Assembly: GCA_025350865.1 (NCBI GenBank)
Contig: JANXWZ010000108.1
Location: 1-55,836 of the forward strand
DNA length: 55,836 nt
Origin: Rhodanobacteraceae bacterium
Lineage (GTDB): Bacteria; Acidobacteriota; Terriglobia; Terriglobales; Acidobacteriaceae
Direction: 5' to 3'
Shown here: piece after piece, positions 796 through 39,675 of the stretch
Layout of the letters: every line of letters starts with the position of its first letter
Position numbering within the stretch: position 1 is the first letter of the stretch
Made by a program: the position numbers and the translations under genes
The notes under the pieces: generated by a model
What the model was told of the DNA's origin: nothing
What the model saw: only the letters and a program-made list of their open reading frames with translations
The model's database searches: none

Positions 796-1782
796 CTACT
801 TTGGCAGCGCTGTGGCGGCCAGAACGTCGGCGATCACGCGATCCGGGTCGAAGCCTTCGAGTTCGGCCTCGGGGCGCAGGCTGAGCCGGTGCCTGAGGAC
901 AGGCAGTGCGGCGAGCTTGACGTCGTCGGGGATGAGGAAGTCGCGGCCTTCGCGAGCCGCGTAGCCCTTGCTTACCAGCAGCAGGGCGGCAGCAGCGCGG
1001 GGACTTGCGCCGAGCGCGATGGTTGGCCACTCGCGGGTGCGCCGGACGAGTGCGATCAGGTAGTCGAACAGCGCTGGCTCAACACGGACGGCGCGGACCT
1101 CAGCGCGTGCGGCACTGAGAGTGGCGAAGCTGATCGGCTCCAGCTCATGCAGTTCGAGGTCTTTGGCTGCGACGCTCGCGTGGTGTCGCTCGAGGATGAG
1201 CCGCTCATCGGCCAGGCGCGGATAGCCTACACGAATCTTGAGGAGGAAGCGGTCGAGCTGGGCTTCCGGAAGAGGGTATGTGCCCTCGAACTCCAGCGGA
1301 TTCTGAGTGGCGAAGACGGTGAAGAAGTCGTCGAGTGGCAAGGCCTGTCCGCCCATGGTGACCTGGCGCTCTTCCATTGCTTCGAGCAGACCGGCCTGGG
1401 TGCGGGGCGGCATGCGATTGATCTCGTCGGCCAGCAGAAACTGCGTAAAGACGGGACCCTGATGCAGGGTGAAGCGGTTGGTTTCGAGCGAAAAGACTTC
1501 GGTGCCGAGGATGTCTGCCGGCATCATGTCCGGCGTGCCCTGGACGCGGCGGAAGCCTAGTTGCAGAAAGCGGGCGAGGGTCTTGACGGCGAGGGTCTTG
1601 GCGACGCCGGGGACGCCTTCGACCAGGGCGTGGCCGCCGCAGAGCAGCGTGAGCAGCGCCTGATCGATCAGCTCTTCCTGGCCGGCAATGACACGACCGA
1701 TTTGCGTGCGTCCGTGCTCAAAGATGGCGAGAGTCGCCCGTACGCTGGATTCTTCCTGCTGCGTCACATCGATGTCGCTCAT
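796..1782 (-). CDS. MoxR-family AAA+ ATPase
   Basis: A 328-residue AAA+ ATPase of the MoxR subfamily, probably a chaperone-like remodeler that works with its DUF58 neighbour. The P-loop is GVPGVAKT at residues 56-63, with the Ala before the Lys that is common in MoxR. The Walker B motif is LLADE at about 116-120, and the MoxR-typical TQNPLE and LDRF segments follow. Length is normal for the family. There is no signal peptide, so it is cytoplasmic. The ATG at 1782 sits behind a GGGGG stretch. It lies 28 bases after the DUF4350 gene and 9 bases before the DUF58 gene, so cotranscription is very likely. The family is clear; its target is not. Confidence 0.93.
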   Translation of the reverse strand: MSDIDVTQQEESSVRATLAIFEHGRTQIGRVIAGQEELIDQALLTLLCGGHALVEGVPGVAKTLAVKTLARFLQLGFRRVQGTPDMMPADILGTEVFSLETNRFTLHQGPVFTQFLLADEINRMPPRTQAGLLEAMEERQVTMGGQALPLDDFFTVFATQNPLEFEGTYPLPEAQLDRFLLKIRVGYPRLADERLILERHHASVAAKDLELHELEPISFATLSAARAEVRAVRVEPALFDYLIALVRRTREWPTIALGASPRAAAALLLVSKGYAAREGRDFLIPDDVKLAALPVLRHRLSLRPEAELEGFDPDRVIADVLAATALPK

Positions 1783-36323: not shown

Positions 36324-38327
36324 TCAAAGCTGACGTGCGAGCAGGAGGGTGATGTCGTCGGGTTGCTCGTGGTCGCCGATCCACTGCTTGACGGCCGCGA
36401 GGACGGTGGCCATGATGACGGGGAGCGGCCTGTCTTTAATTGGGGTGATCAGCTCGATGAGGCGCTGCTGGCCGAAGTCGTGCCCGTCCTGCTCGGGTTC
36501 GGTGACGCCGTCGGTGAACGCAATCAGGAGATCGCCGGAATTCAGTTGAACGGCGGCCTCGGAGTACACAATGCCGGGCAGCAGGCCGACGACGGAGCCG
36601 CCGACGTCCAGGCGCTCAATGGTCCCTGCGGCGGTGAGGATGATGGGCGGTAGATGGCCGCCATTGGAGTACGTCAGGGCGCGGGTTTCGGCCACATAGC
36701 AGGCGGCAAACAGGGTGGCGTAGCGCGAGGATTGGGTGCTGCGGTAGAGCGACCGGTTGATGGTCTCCATCATCGCAGCGGGCGAGATCGTTGTCCCGGT
36801 GGCTGAGTTCGCGTCGAAGCTGAGGGCGCGGATGGAGGAGTGAAGCGACGCCATCAGGAGCGCGGCCGACATGCCCTTGCCGCTGATGTCGCCGAGTGTG
36901 AGGCAGACGGCGTTTTGCGGGCCGAGGATGAAGTCGTAGTAGTCGCCGCCGACAGAAAGGGCAGGAACGCAGACCGCGTGGAGTTCCAGACCGGCGGTCG
37001 TGGTGGGGGACTGGGGGAAGAGTGTGCGCTGTACATCCTGGGCGATTGAAAGCTCGTTGAGGAGCTTGTCTTTTTCGCGCTGCTGGATGAGGAGGTCCGC
37101 AATGGAGCCTGCCATGCGGTTGAAGGAGCCGGCAAGTTCCCCAAGCTGGTCGGGACGCTTTACGGGAACGCGGTGCTCGAGGTTGCCCGCATCGATAGCT
37201 CTGGTGCCGCGGTACAGGGCAGCAACGGAAGAGACGATGGTTCGGCTGACCACGATCGCCATAACCACGGCGAATAACTCAAGCACAGCGAACGCCACAA
37301 TGACGGTGAGCAGGATGTAACGCGCGACCGCCCCGCCGGAAAAGGAGTTGGCAAAGAGGCGGTGGTAGAGGATGGTGGGGCGGGAGGCGACGACGATGAT
37401 GGAGGATGTCTTTCCGCCGTTGTTCCATGCGTAGATGGGGATTGGCGCACTGAAATAGATGGGCGCGTCGAAGAGGTTGGCGGCGGCGGGGAGCGAGCCG
37501 CCTTTCAGGTCGACTTGATCGGTTGAATGGCGTGCGGCCGCTTTGGGGGCGGCTTCCGGATTCTTGCCGGGACTCTCATCTTCGTTGTGGGAGAAGATGC
37601 GCAGGGCACCGAGGCTCGCGTCGAGAGAGCCAAGCGTGGGTTCGTCGAGAGGCCTGGAGCCAAAGATTTCGGCGGGGCCGTGGGGGGTGTTGGCGGTGTC
37701 GGCGGCGCAGAGGTACAGGCGGCCGTCCCGCTCGATGATGCCGCGGAAGGAGTGGAGCAGCCAGGCGGGTACAGGCTCATCGGGGCGGGCGAGGGAGTCT
37801 GCCGAGGCGGCGGAGAGGGGCTGCCACTTACCGTTGTTTAGTACCGAGATGCTGGCGCGCGTTGAAGGCCTGCCGGTGTCGGAGATAAGGTGTTGGCTCA
37901 TCGCGGCCGCACTTGCGGTGTCTTCGGCCACAGCTTTGCTGGCTTCGTCGAGGTCGGCGAGCGCGGTGTTGGTGGAGTACTGGCCGGCGAAAAGGTACAG
38001 GGCGATGCTGCCGAGAATCGAGAAGAGGACGATGGGCGCGAGTCCCATCAGGAGATATGTCAGCGTGAGACGGTTTCGGACCGACCAGAGGACACGCCTG
38101 CTAAACCAGCGAAAAAAGAGAAGGAGCACACAGACGGCGAGCGGGATCGTTGCGACCACGAGCAGAGTGACGGCGAGGCCGCGGAAGAGGCCAAGGATGA
38201 CCCCAAAGATGAGACAGACGACGAAAGTCCCGAGGAGCCATAGCGTGAAGCGGGCTAGGCGGGTCTGGCGGGCGTACCAGCGTTTGGCGTTAGCAAGAAA
38301 CGGCCGTGGTGGTGGGGCGGTCGGCAT
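36324..38327 (-). CDS. Membrane-bound HAMP/PP2C (SpoIIE-type) serine phosphatase
   Basis: 667 residues from the ATG at 38327 (a GTG at 38339 is the alternative; AAAGG lies upstream of both). Two hydrophobic hairpins in the first 120 residues and another helix at about 330-365 frame an extracytoplasmic region of some 200 residues. A HAMP linker (GTRAIDAGNLEHRVPVK) leads through a short coiled coil into a PP2C domain with VGGDYYDF, GKGMSAALLMA and TDGVTEP, the metal-binding residues being intact. This is the RsbU layout: sensing outside, dephosphorylation of an anti-sigma-factor antagonist or other partner inside. No anti-sigma or STAS gene is nearby, so its target is unknown. Confidence 0.92.
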   Translation of the reverse strand: MPTAPPPRPFLANAKRWYARQTRLARFTLWLLGTFVVCLIFGVILGLFRGLAVTLLVVATIPLAVCVLLLFFRWFSRRVLWSVRNRLTLTYLLMGLAPIVLFSILGSIALYLFAGQYSTNTALADLDEASKAVAEDTASAAAMSQHLISDTGRPSTRASISVLNNGKWQPLSAASADSLARPDEPVPAWLLHSFRGIIERDGRLYLCAADTANTPHGPAEIFGSRPLDEPTLGSLDASLGALRIFSHNEDESPGKNPEAAPKAAARHSTDQVDLKGGSLPAAANLFDAPIYFSAPIPIYAWNNGGKTSSIIVVASRPTILYHRLFANSFSGGAVARYILLTVIVAFAVLELFAVVMAIVVSRTIVSSVAALYRGTRAIDAGNLEHRVPVKRPDQLGELAGSFNRMAGSIADLLIQQREKDKLLNELSIAQDVQRTLFPQSPTTTAGLELHAVCVPALSVGGDYYDFILGPQNAVCLTLGDISGKGMSAALLMASLHSSIRALSFDANSATGTTISPAAMMETINRSLYRSTQSSRYATLFAACYVAETRALTYSNGGHLPPIILTAAGTIERLDVGGSVVGLLPGIVYSEAAVQLNSGDLLIAFTDGVTEPEQDGHDFGQQRLIELITPIKDRPLPVIMATVLAAVKQWIGDHEQPDDITLLLARQL

Positions 38328-38415
38328 GGAATTGCACACCTTTCATGCGGAGCCCACAGTGGGTGCTGTGTGCGCTCCATCATACGGTGTGCCGAGGTTG
38401 TTGGGAGTGATGTGT

Positions 38416-38491
38416 TGGAGCACCGAATGGGATTTGAACCCATGAATACTGGTTTTGCAGACCAGCGCGTTAGCCACTTCGCCATCGGTGC
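38416..38491 (-). tRNA. tRNA-Cys (GCA)
   Basis: A full cloverleaf can be drawn on the minus strand: acceptor GCACCGA/TCGGTGC, anticodon stem CTGGT/ACCAG with loop CTGCAAA (anticodon GCA), T-arm ATGGG-TTCAAAT-CCCAT, and an encoded CCA end at 38416-38418. The discriminator base is U, which is the identity element of tRNA-Cys. No other tRNA was found. Confidence 0.95.
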
Positions 38492-38509
38492 TTCCTGTTG
38501 CAACCTCAA

Positions 38510-38547
38510 AGTCAAAACCCACCCGGCACTCTGGCAGCGGGTGGGTT
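38510..38547 (-). terminator. Terminator-like hairpin just upstream of tRNA-Cys
   Basis: On the minus strand AACCCACCCG (38547-38538) pairs perfectly with CGGGTGGGTT (38525-38516) around a 12-base loop, then TTGACTTT follows, so that four Ts come directly after the GC-rich stem. It lies 19 bases before the 5' end of tRNA-Cys and 37 bases after the stop of a Cys-rich micro-ORF. It could end the micro-ORF transcript or act as an attenuator of the tRNA gene. Confidence 0.55.
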
Positions 38548-38583
38548 CAAAGTTGTTTCGAAAGCTTCTTGCTCCGATTTCAC

Positions 38584-38646
38584 TCAGCCACACACTGCGG
38601 TGTCATCGCAGCAACAGCAGGTCGTGTGTGAGATTGCAATCGTCAT
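38584..38646 (-). CDS. Putative 20-residue Cys-rich leader peptide
   Basis: An ATG at 38646 opens a 20-codon frame ending in TGA at 38584-38586. The peptide has four consecutive Cys codons (TGC TGT TGC TGC) at positions 10-13 and a fifth Cys at position 19. GAGAG lies seven bases upstream of the ATG. The coding DNA itself contains complementary arms CACACAC and GTGTGTG that enclose the Cys codons. Nothing similar is known to me at this site, and translation is unproven. Its importance is its position, just ahead of a terminator-like hairpin and tRNA-Cys. Confidence 0.45.
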   Translation of the reverse strand: MTIAISHTTCCCCDDTAVCG

Positions 38647-38763
38647 AGGCTTACTCTCAAAACTCAATTTCGTACCGCGCCAGCTTTGGGTTTCAGATCA
38701 GCTAGCATGGTGAAGCCGTTTGCCCCACTGCGGTATCTCGAATCTCTCACTGGAGGACGTGCG

Positions 38764-39675
38764 ATGTCAACCCTGCCACCCATGCAGCCTCTCGACTATG
38801 CCTTGGTCGATGTCTTCGCCGAGCGCTCCCTCGAAGGCAATTGCCTCGCCATCTTCACCAATGGCACCGGCCTTTCGACGGCTCAGATGCAGGCCCTCGC
38901 CCGCGAGATGAATCTGCCTGAAACCACGTTCATCATTCCGGATCAGGACGAGCGGGAAGGCGTGCATGTGCGCATCTTCACGGTGCAGGAGGAACTGCCC
39001 TTTGCGGGGCATCCTACGCTGGGGACGGCGTCCTGGCTGTATTTGAATCGACCTGAACTGCGGGAGCGCGGCAATGTCACACTCCGGTTGAAGGCTGGCG
39101 ATATCACGGTCACGTTCGAGCAGCCAAGCAACAATGAGGCCGGCGTCTTTGGGACGATGCGTCAGCTTGATCCGTTCTTCGGCATGGTTCATTCGCGCGA
39201 GGAGGTCGCTACCGCGATCAACGTGCCTCTGGAGGACCTGGATGCCTCGCTCCCCATCCAGACCGTCTCCACGGGGCTGGCGTTCTGCATTGTGCCGCTC
39301 GCTTCGATGGCGGCGATTGGCCGCCTGTGTATCCCGCAGGGGAGCGCGCAGGCTTATCTTGCGAAGACCGATGCGAAGTTTTTCTACTGCACCACGCGGG
39401 CGGACGCAGCCTCCGGTGCGGACTTCCACTCGCGCATGCAGTTCTACAACGGTGAAGATCCGGCCACGGGTTCGGCCTCGGGATGCGCGATCTCCTACCT
39501 CGTTCGTCATGGCGTGGTGCCTGGTGGTCGTGCGACGGTGCTGGAGCAAGGCGTTGAGATCCATCGGCCGTCGCGAATTCATGTCAGCGCGACTGTCAAG
39601 GGTGAAGTTGTAAGCGATGTGTTCGTTGGCGGACGCACCATCTCTGTTGCAAGTGGACGCTTTTTCCAACGCTGA
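38764..39675 (+). CDS. PhzF-family isomerase/epimerase-like protein
   Basis: 303 residues from the ATG at 38764, which has GGAGG seven bases upstream; an in-frame ATG at 38686 lacks a ribosome site. The protein shows the PhzF fold signatures: EGNCLAIF, PETTFI with the conserved catalytic Glu, FAGHPTLGTA and, in the second half, NGEDPATGSASG. The length is typical. PhzF proteins isomerise small carboxylic acids; PhzF itself acts in phenazine synthesis, but most family members have unknown substrates and no phenazine genes are present here. It stands alone, divergent from the tRNA-Cys unit. Confidence 0.92.
   Translation: MSTLPPMQPLDYALVDVFAERSLEGNCLAIFTNGTGLSTAQMQALAREMNLPETTFIIPDQDEREGVHVRIFTVQEELPFAGHPTLGTASWLYLNRPELRERGNVTLRLKAGDITVTFEQPSNNEAGVFGTMRQLDPFFGMVHSREEVATAINVPLEDLDASLPIQTVSTGLAFCIVPLASMAAIGRLCIPQGSAQAYLAKTDAKFFYCTTRADAASGADFHSRMQFYNGEDPATGSASGCAISYLVRHGVVPGGRATVLEQGVEIHRPSRIHVSATVKGEVVSDVFVGGRTISVASGRFFQR

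Follow-up and report, generated by a model that had tools for sequence, protein, structure and literature searches.

A poly-cysteine leader and terminator before tRNA-Cys in Acidobacteriaceae: a probable attenuator of a tRNA gene

Genes for tRNAs are commonly regarded as being under growth-rate control. The window, by which we mean the whole 55,836-nt stretch of DNA analyzed here, raises the question of whether a tRNA gene can also be controlled through the decoding of its own amino acid. On its minus strand a short ORF with consecutive Cys codons, an intrinsic terminator and a tRNA-Cys gene follow one another:

38584..38646, minus strand: poly-Cys leader ORF with stop, MTIAISHTTCCCCDDTAVCG, 20 codons, ATG to TGA (direct reading; Cys ORF in relatives)
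38608..38619, minus strand: control codons TGC TGT TGC TGC (direct reading)
38517..38546, minus strand: intrinsic terminator hairpin, ACCCACCCG ... CGGGTGGGT (direct reading; similar hairpins in relatives)
38508..38517, minus strand: T-rich tail TTTTGACTTT (direct reading)
38416..38491, minus strand: tRNA-Cys (GCA) with encoded CCA (ARAGORN; Rfam RF00005, 68.8 bits)

The first-pass annotation had described a 20-codon minus-strand frame with four consecutive Cys codons, and this frame is indeed found at 38646-38584. A fifth Cys stands at codon 19 of the peptide MTIAISHTTCCCCDDTAVCG, and the ORF listing gives a 27-aa version that begins at an upstream TTG in the same frame. The 37 nt between the leader stop codon and the hairpin and the GCA anticodon of the tRNA-Cys (ARAGORN; Rfam RF00005) were likewise described correctly, and the 19 bases given for the distance between the hairpin tail and the tRNA have to be corrected to 16 nt from TTTTGACTTT, or 22 nt from TTTT. 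The terminator arms are ACCCACCCG at 38546-38538 and CGGGTGGGT at 38525-38517, and the first T of the tail TTTTGACTTT doubles as the last stem base; the tail is short, which counts against reading the locus as an attenuator. A simple consensus scan of 38200-38900 listed neither a terminator nor a promoter, and may have missed the hairpin because its loop limit was 3–8 nt and the loop here is about 12 nt.

When 61 genomes were searched with the locus, 38 gave a match, which was almost always confined to the tRNA. Three weak matches (G031, G006, G007) pointed to a leader-like sequence farther upstream, and in 30 loci inspected the leader was seen, for most of the genus, about 750–1000 nt before the tRNA. 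With a 40-base tRNA-Cys pattern we obtained 76 named stretches, whose titles almost all refer to Acidobacteria, Acidobacteriaceae or genera of these (Edaphobacter, Granulicella, Terriglobus, Silvibacterium, Acidipila, Acidobacterium and Paracidobacterium), with L172 and L183 under other taxon labels, and a tRNA search across 249 genomes of the order matched 147, with 70 loci taken. A poly-Cys ORF (at least three Cys) precedes a terminator at 120 of the 170 loci scanned; some genomes occur twice among these loci, once under a handle and once under a name, and distinct counts drop exact copies only. Of the 99 distinct leaders 97 were used, the exclusions being L161, where the script chose a non-leader ORF, and L242, where other sequence separates the ORF from the tRNA, 634 nt away. 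The remaining 50 loci include eight with less than 700 nt of upstream sequence and some at which the leader was missed by the terminator or start-codon rule (e.g., L157, L120, L181, L173). Around this tRNA, 26 of the 70 loci have no poly-Cys ORF before a terminator by the scan; four of the 26 (L204, L205, L252, L255) do show a Cys ORF, and most of the others none. The leader is absent at loci of the sister family f2 (L228–L230) and of genera g21, g24, g32, g36, g71 and g94, and none was found at six tRNA-Cys copies of two g25 genomes, G247 (L214, L232, L233) and G367 (L234, L245, L248). At L003 (G011), which has no peroxiredoxin at the locus, the Cys run has degenerated into an Arg run (MTMISNSTRRRRCIGDRVRV in a translation made by eye), and the terminator and 5′ element are kept. 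The alignment of relatives proposed in the first-pass annotation thus shows that the Cys run, its frame and the terminator all recur, and the arrangement of leader, terminator and tRNA-Cys is, judging by sequence, kept in Acidobacteriaceae relatives.

Is this leader specifically a Cys leader, and is it translated? For a count that was not selected on Cys, the 3′-most strict terminator before the tRNA was taken at each locus (96 distinct), and the largest count of each amino acid was recorded in ATG ORFs ending no more than 130 nt 5′ of it. At least four Cys were found at 89 of the 96 distinct loci, the next amino acid being Leu at 24, and runs of three or more were of Cys at 79 and of Leu at 12. 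Among these 96 loci 80 have a TGY run of three or more, and at 79 of them the Cys frame offers both an upstream ATG and a stop ahead of the hairpin, compared with 0 and 9 for the other frames; a Leu-frame reading as CTG CTG TTG CTG is ruled out, as it has ATG and stop at only 9 of the 80. A TGY x4 run is not rare on its own (62 in the 4.8-Mb window genome against 42 for the reversed pattern), and what exceeds chance is its conservation in relatives; a chance run is ruled out by this recurrence (the 89 of 96 loci and the 79 of 80 frames). Inspection of 30 of the 62 TGY x4 sites, the other 32 including that of the window itself, revealed three distinct short Cys ORFs, none of them followed by such a terminator, and no second Cys attenuator.

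Substitution patterns speak differently. Over 76 pairs pN/pS was 0.89 in the Cys frame and 0.44 and 1.49 in the other frames, so by this measure no purifying selection on the whole leader peptide was found, and among 26 disjoint pairs the changes in Cys codons were not enriched for synonymous ones (9/53, p 0.76). Cys columns were nevertheless kept more often than others (146/190 vs 168/278). We read this as selection that acts on the number of Cys codons and not on the peptide, as far as these counts can indicate. This is what attenuation predicts, and it also means that the evidence for translation is limited: the openness of the frame favors translation of the leader ORF, and pN/pS and the synonymous counts do not. 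Codon-substitution tests do not prove translation; pN/pS was set aside as unhelpful for that purpose.

An attenuator further needs an antiterminator that excludes the terminator. The first-pass annotation had failed to see a strong one by eye and proposed folding the RNA, and the fold does predict such a pairing, between the end of the ORF and the terminator 5′ arm:

38588..38598, minus strand: antiterminator 5′ strand (region 2), GCAGTGTGTGG, last ORF codons (MFE fold with a ribosome at the first Cys codon)
38534..38544, minus strand: antiterminator 3′ strand (region 3), CCACCCGCTGC, overlapping the terminator 5′ arm (MFE fold; flanking-base covariation in relatives)

In the predicted fold of the window, GCAGUGUGUGG (38598-38588) pairs with CCACCCGCUGC (38544-38534) over 10 bp with one U-C mismatch. 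When relatives were folded in the same way, the ribosome being set on the longest run at its first Cys codon and the RNA extending up to the terminator loop, the terminator 5′ arm was paired upstream in 94 of 97 leaders, where dinucleotide shuffles gave an expectation of 53.5. In most cases it pairs with the G-rich ORF end, e.g., GGGTGTGTGG and TGCGGGTGT. If the ribosome is placed at the stop codon instead, the arm is predicted to be free in 88 of 96; in untranslated folds it is still sequestered in 63 of 97, and the default state is therefore not clearly termination. A short-arm duplex test gave a mean z of -1.39, with 64 of 97 leaders below -1 and three above 1, and it understates the window pairing, since the arm had been trimmed to 11 nt. 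The base flanking the paired core covaries with its partner (arm G/C 23, G/T 0, A/C 11, A/T 9; Fisher p 3e-4, a statistic that ignores the relatedness of the sequences), and L121 and L238 show matched changes of the core itself, CACCTGC with GCAGGTG. The ORF, its frame, the Cys run, the terminator, the mutually exclusive pairing in predicted form and the recurrence in relatives are thus all present in the sequence.

In relatives the usual order is a divergent phzF-like gene, the poly-Cys leader, the terminator, a peroxiredoxin gene and tRNA-Cys, and the window lacks the peroxiredoxin. A peroxiredoxin motif lies between terminator and tRNA-Cys, as the first gene after the terminator, for 76 of the 97 distinct leaders, and the three proteins scanned carry Pfam AhpC-TSA and 1-cysPrx_C domains. 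The other 21 show the direct order, with no more than 300 nt from leader to tRNA-Cys and no peroxiredoxin. They are the window, L123, L124, L023, L113, L114, L144, L147, L148, L203, L207, L209, L222, L237–L241, L244, L247 and L250, and they come from genera g1, g25, g46 and g60 plus the records L113 and L148; L124, a named Granulicella record, falls with g1 rows in a tree of phzF. This tree (75 rows, a quick method without bootstrap, midpoint root) groups L113, L114, L120 and L144 as a clade of their own (SH-aLRT 100), separate from the window and from the remaining losses, and its labels need seven changes, at least three of them forced by starred branches. The window genome encodes a peroxiredoxin of 71% identity elsewhere (contig C29), and no such leader was found in the 500 nt upstream of it. 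Additional peroxiredoxin genes were seen at a few loci: L018 has a second one after tRNA-Cys (804-1460, minus strand), L096 and L097 (G023, G001) have two in tandem before it, and at L173 a peroxiredoxin gene stands before each of two tRNA-Cys copies, with the leader seen only before the first.

A transcription start between hairpin and tRNA would speak against an attenuator, as the first-pass annotation pointed out, and the 22-nt gap between T-run and tRNA in the window appears to hold none, as no promoter was found there. The corresponding gap is 10 nt in L222 (g46), 10 nt in L239 (g25) and 34 nt in L247. Gaps of 10–22 nt (window, L222 and L239, from three genera) leave too little room for a promoter, and one could fit in the 52–163 nt of the other 17 of the 21 direct cases. 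A GCATAAT precedes tRNA-Cys within the gap in L123, L124 and L023, and also in L021, which has neither leader nor peroxiredoxin. The gene behind the tRNA-Cys of the window is of the SpoIIE/HAMP type. An ORF that by one of its motifs presumably resembles short-chain dehydrogenases follows at about 100 nt in L114/L188, L144/L190 and L209 and at about 640 nt in L203; L207 and L148 have something else, and L123, L124 and L023 have ORFs on the opposite strand. As the genes behind the tRNA differ among the direct loci inspected, the tRNA is the target that they share. The dehydrogenase-like ORF of L114, L144 and L209, at a distance of about 95–110 nt, could share the tRNA-Cys transcript.

Upstream of the leader, the window shows the following features:

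38673..38734, minus strand: three-way-junction RNA element of the 5′ UTR, helices P1, P2 and P3 (model R1; covariation, 24 rows)
38741..38746, minus strand: candidate -10 hexamer GAGATT, weak, spacer 18 (position by analogy with relatives)
38765..38770, minus strand: -35 hexamer TTGACA (direct reading; TTGACA in 25 of 25 aligned rows)
38764..39675, plus strand: divergent phzF-family gene, a syntenic marker (Pfam PF02567, E 1.7e-49 on the longer ORF 38686-39675)

The candidate -10 is a poor match and absent from the output of the consensus scan, which counts against the attenuator reading. TTGACN occurs no more than 150 nt upstream of the leader in 91 of 96 distinct leaders, compared with 250 of 2355 background segments. 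In the window the TTGACA overlaps the likely phzF start codon (ATG 38764-38766), as it does by look in many relatives, and this overlap has helped the conservation of the hexamer. A phzF-like ORF lies upstream at the 75 loci used for the tree and not at every locus, and the hexamer is present also where phzF was not found (e.g., L117, L119, L131, L143). The leader ATG follows the -10 by 5–14 nt in 23 of the 91 leaders with TTGACN. In the window it is 94 nt from the candidate -10, from which we infer a 5′ UTR of roughly 85–90 nt that would carry the RNA element.

This element lies directly after the promoter in Edaphobacter- and Granulicella-type rows and usually spans about 48 nt, 62 in the window. 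In 24 rows 96.8% of cells are paired, and the covariation score is 0.258 vs 0.175 shuffled; nine cells are changed on both sides, a number reached by 1 of 500 shuffles, and further pair types are not unusual in number (81 of 500 shuffles). Model R1 matches the window at 49.4 bits (E 3.3e-7), the window's own row being part of the model, as well as 29 of 300 family genomes and 34 of the 76 named stretches at E up to 1. Fifteen of 16 inspected R1 loci have both the Cys ORF and the peroxiredoxin; the match in G086 (L106), with neither, is counted as false. L006 lacks the element, and Rfam holds no family that matches it. The element, seen at the window, the A1 rows, L082–L105 and L107–L110, is a candidate new RNA motif, and our guess is that it might serve ribosome loading or act as a second input.

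We consider it likely that the locus is a transcription attenuator in which a ribosome would stall at Cys codons, and that its regulated product in the window genome is tRNA-Cys itself. RNA polymerase would start upstream of the poly-Cys ORF. With plentiful Cys-tRNA the ribosome would reach the stop codon and cover the GTGTGTGG segment at the ORF end, upon which the terminator hairpin would form and the tRNA would not be made. With charged tRNA-Cys scarce, the ribosome would stall at TGC TGT TGC TGC and free 38598-38588 to pair with 38544-38534; the terminator 5′ arm would then be taken, and the polymerase would read into tRNA-Cys. Translation of the leader, stalling, read-through and the response to charging are what we infer from this arrangement. 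In most relatives examined the same switch would read into a 1-Cys-type peroxiredoxin and then tRNA-Cys. It seems probable, with somewhat less assurance, that closed-loop control of tRNA-Cys by its own decoding is widespread among Acidobacteriaceae: the poly-Cys leader would gauge the rate at which tRNA-Cys reaches the ribosome and adjust transcription of the tRNA gene. In most lineages examined a thiol peroxidase would share this switch, and Edaphobacter and Granulicella add a 5′ RNA element. That the first-pass annotation was right to suspect an attenuator is supported, as far as DNA alone can tell, by the conservation, the antiterminator, the narrow gap and the 21 direct leaders.

The leader and terminator might be concerned with the peroxiredoxin only, which they would regulate in relatives; the window would then have lost that gene and retained a decaying leader, its tRNA-Cys being made by leaky read-through. 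The peroxiredoxin motif behind 76 of 97 leaders fits such a history, as do the position of the window among peroxiredoxin-bearing rows in the phzF tree, the degenerate Cys run of L003, also without peroxiredoxin there, and L021 and L127, which have neither leader nor peroxiredoxin (L127 with 672 nt upstream only). The window, however, has its ORF, Cys run, terminator and 10-bp antiterminator all intact, and the direct order is found with its Cys codons kept in several genera (g25, g46, g60), for which reason we regard a relic as unlikely. It is quite improbable that the nascent peptide is the sensor, with oxidation of its cysteines or metal binding to them stalling or freeing the ribosome and so controlling peroxiredoxin and tRNA-Cys. 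A peroxiredoxin as the usual target and the common spacing of the type CMCLCCCC would suit this, but the number of Cys (3 to 11 per peptide) and their spacing vary widely and little else is conserved, which points to codons and not to a site that binds a ligand, and tRNA-Cys as the common target fits decoding better.

If the hairpin just ended the transcript of a small peptide or sRNA and the tRNA had its own promoter, the GCATAAT-like motifs before tRNA-Cys in L123, L124, L023 and L021 and the 52–163-nt gaps in 17 of 21 direct cases would be accounted for. That promoter would not fit into the 10–22-nt gaps of the window, L222 and L239, however, and the recurrent Cys codons and antiterminator pairing would be left unexplained; we hold such independent units to be very improbable.

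Attenuation by stalling at Cys codons, the reading that we prefer, has well-known counterparts. Attenuators of the trp/his type combine a short ORF rich in codons of the regulating amino acid, an intrinsic terminator and a mutually exclusive antiterminator with ribosome stalling, and the window locus, known from its sequence, resembles them in its Cys-codon ORF, terminator, exclusive antiterminator and putative stalling logic. What marks leader-peptide attenuators is found here as well: enrichment in codons of one amino acid, an intrinsic terminator between leader ORF and first downstream gene in the window and in relatives, and an antiterminator predicted to be exposed by stalling. Whereas the target of the trp/his type is a biosynthetic operon, here a tRNA gene would be controlled, alone or together with a peroxiredoxin, and the input and output of the regulator would be the same molecule. 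T-box riboswitches sense uncharged tRNA and control a terminator; they share the logic of tRNA charging and termination, but sensing here would pass through a translated ORF. Neither a T-box nor another known RNA family was found for the leader by Rfam 15 on the window or on 20 loci at E up to 1, and the sub-gathering matches besides tRNA were an antisense Plastid-ycf2 on the tRNA, CRISPR-DR29 and CsrC.

Poly-Cys leaderless short-ORF attenuators of mycobacteria were reportedly described by Canestrari and colleagues in 2020. In the passages of a review that deal with them, mycobacterial short ORFs with contiguous Cys codons are described as cysteine-dependent attenuation, and translational control of the downstream genes is spoken of (PMC9031893). 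By that account the likeness lies in the contiguous Cys codons of a short ORF. The mycobacterial ORFs are leaderless and belong to a different phylum, whereas the window leader probably has the 5′ UTR with RNA element described above; some leaders of the present set, those with an ATG 5–14 nt after the -10 (23/91), may be leaderless too. The review passages further concern translation of downstream coding genes, whereas in the window the terminator is followed first by a tRNA gene, so that control by translation is impossible there. Titles and abstract openings of the literature, a scope outside which most subscription papers lie, yielded no leader-peptide attenuator of a tRNA gene. If the proposed switch operates, soil Acidobacteria would make more tRNA-Cys when cysteine decoding falls short; the supply of this tRNA would correct itself, and the locus would be a clear natural example for the study of how a rare tRNA is balanced with codon demand. 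The peroxiredoxin link suggests that the cell takes a shortage of charged tRNA-Cys as a warning that cysteine is being lost to oxidation.

Among the 47 tRNAs of the window genome there are two tRNA-Cys, the second one different, and the leader-linked copy thus need not be essential. Among 30 genomes tested, a full-length second tRNA-Cys of the Gly-Cys cluster type was present in 26 and not found in G336 (L239), G252, G189 and G007, all draft assemblies. Partial copies of the leader-linked tRNA-Cys, comprising its 3′ part only, were seen in G009, G015, G029, G032, G025, G006 and G000:C30:6-55, the pattern left by elements that integrate into tRNA genes.
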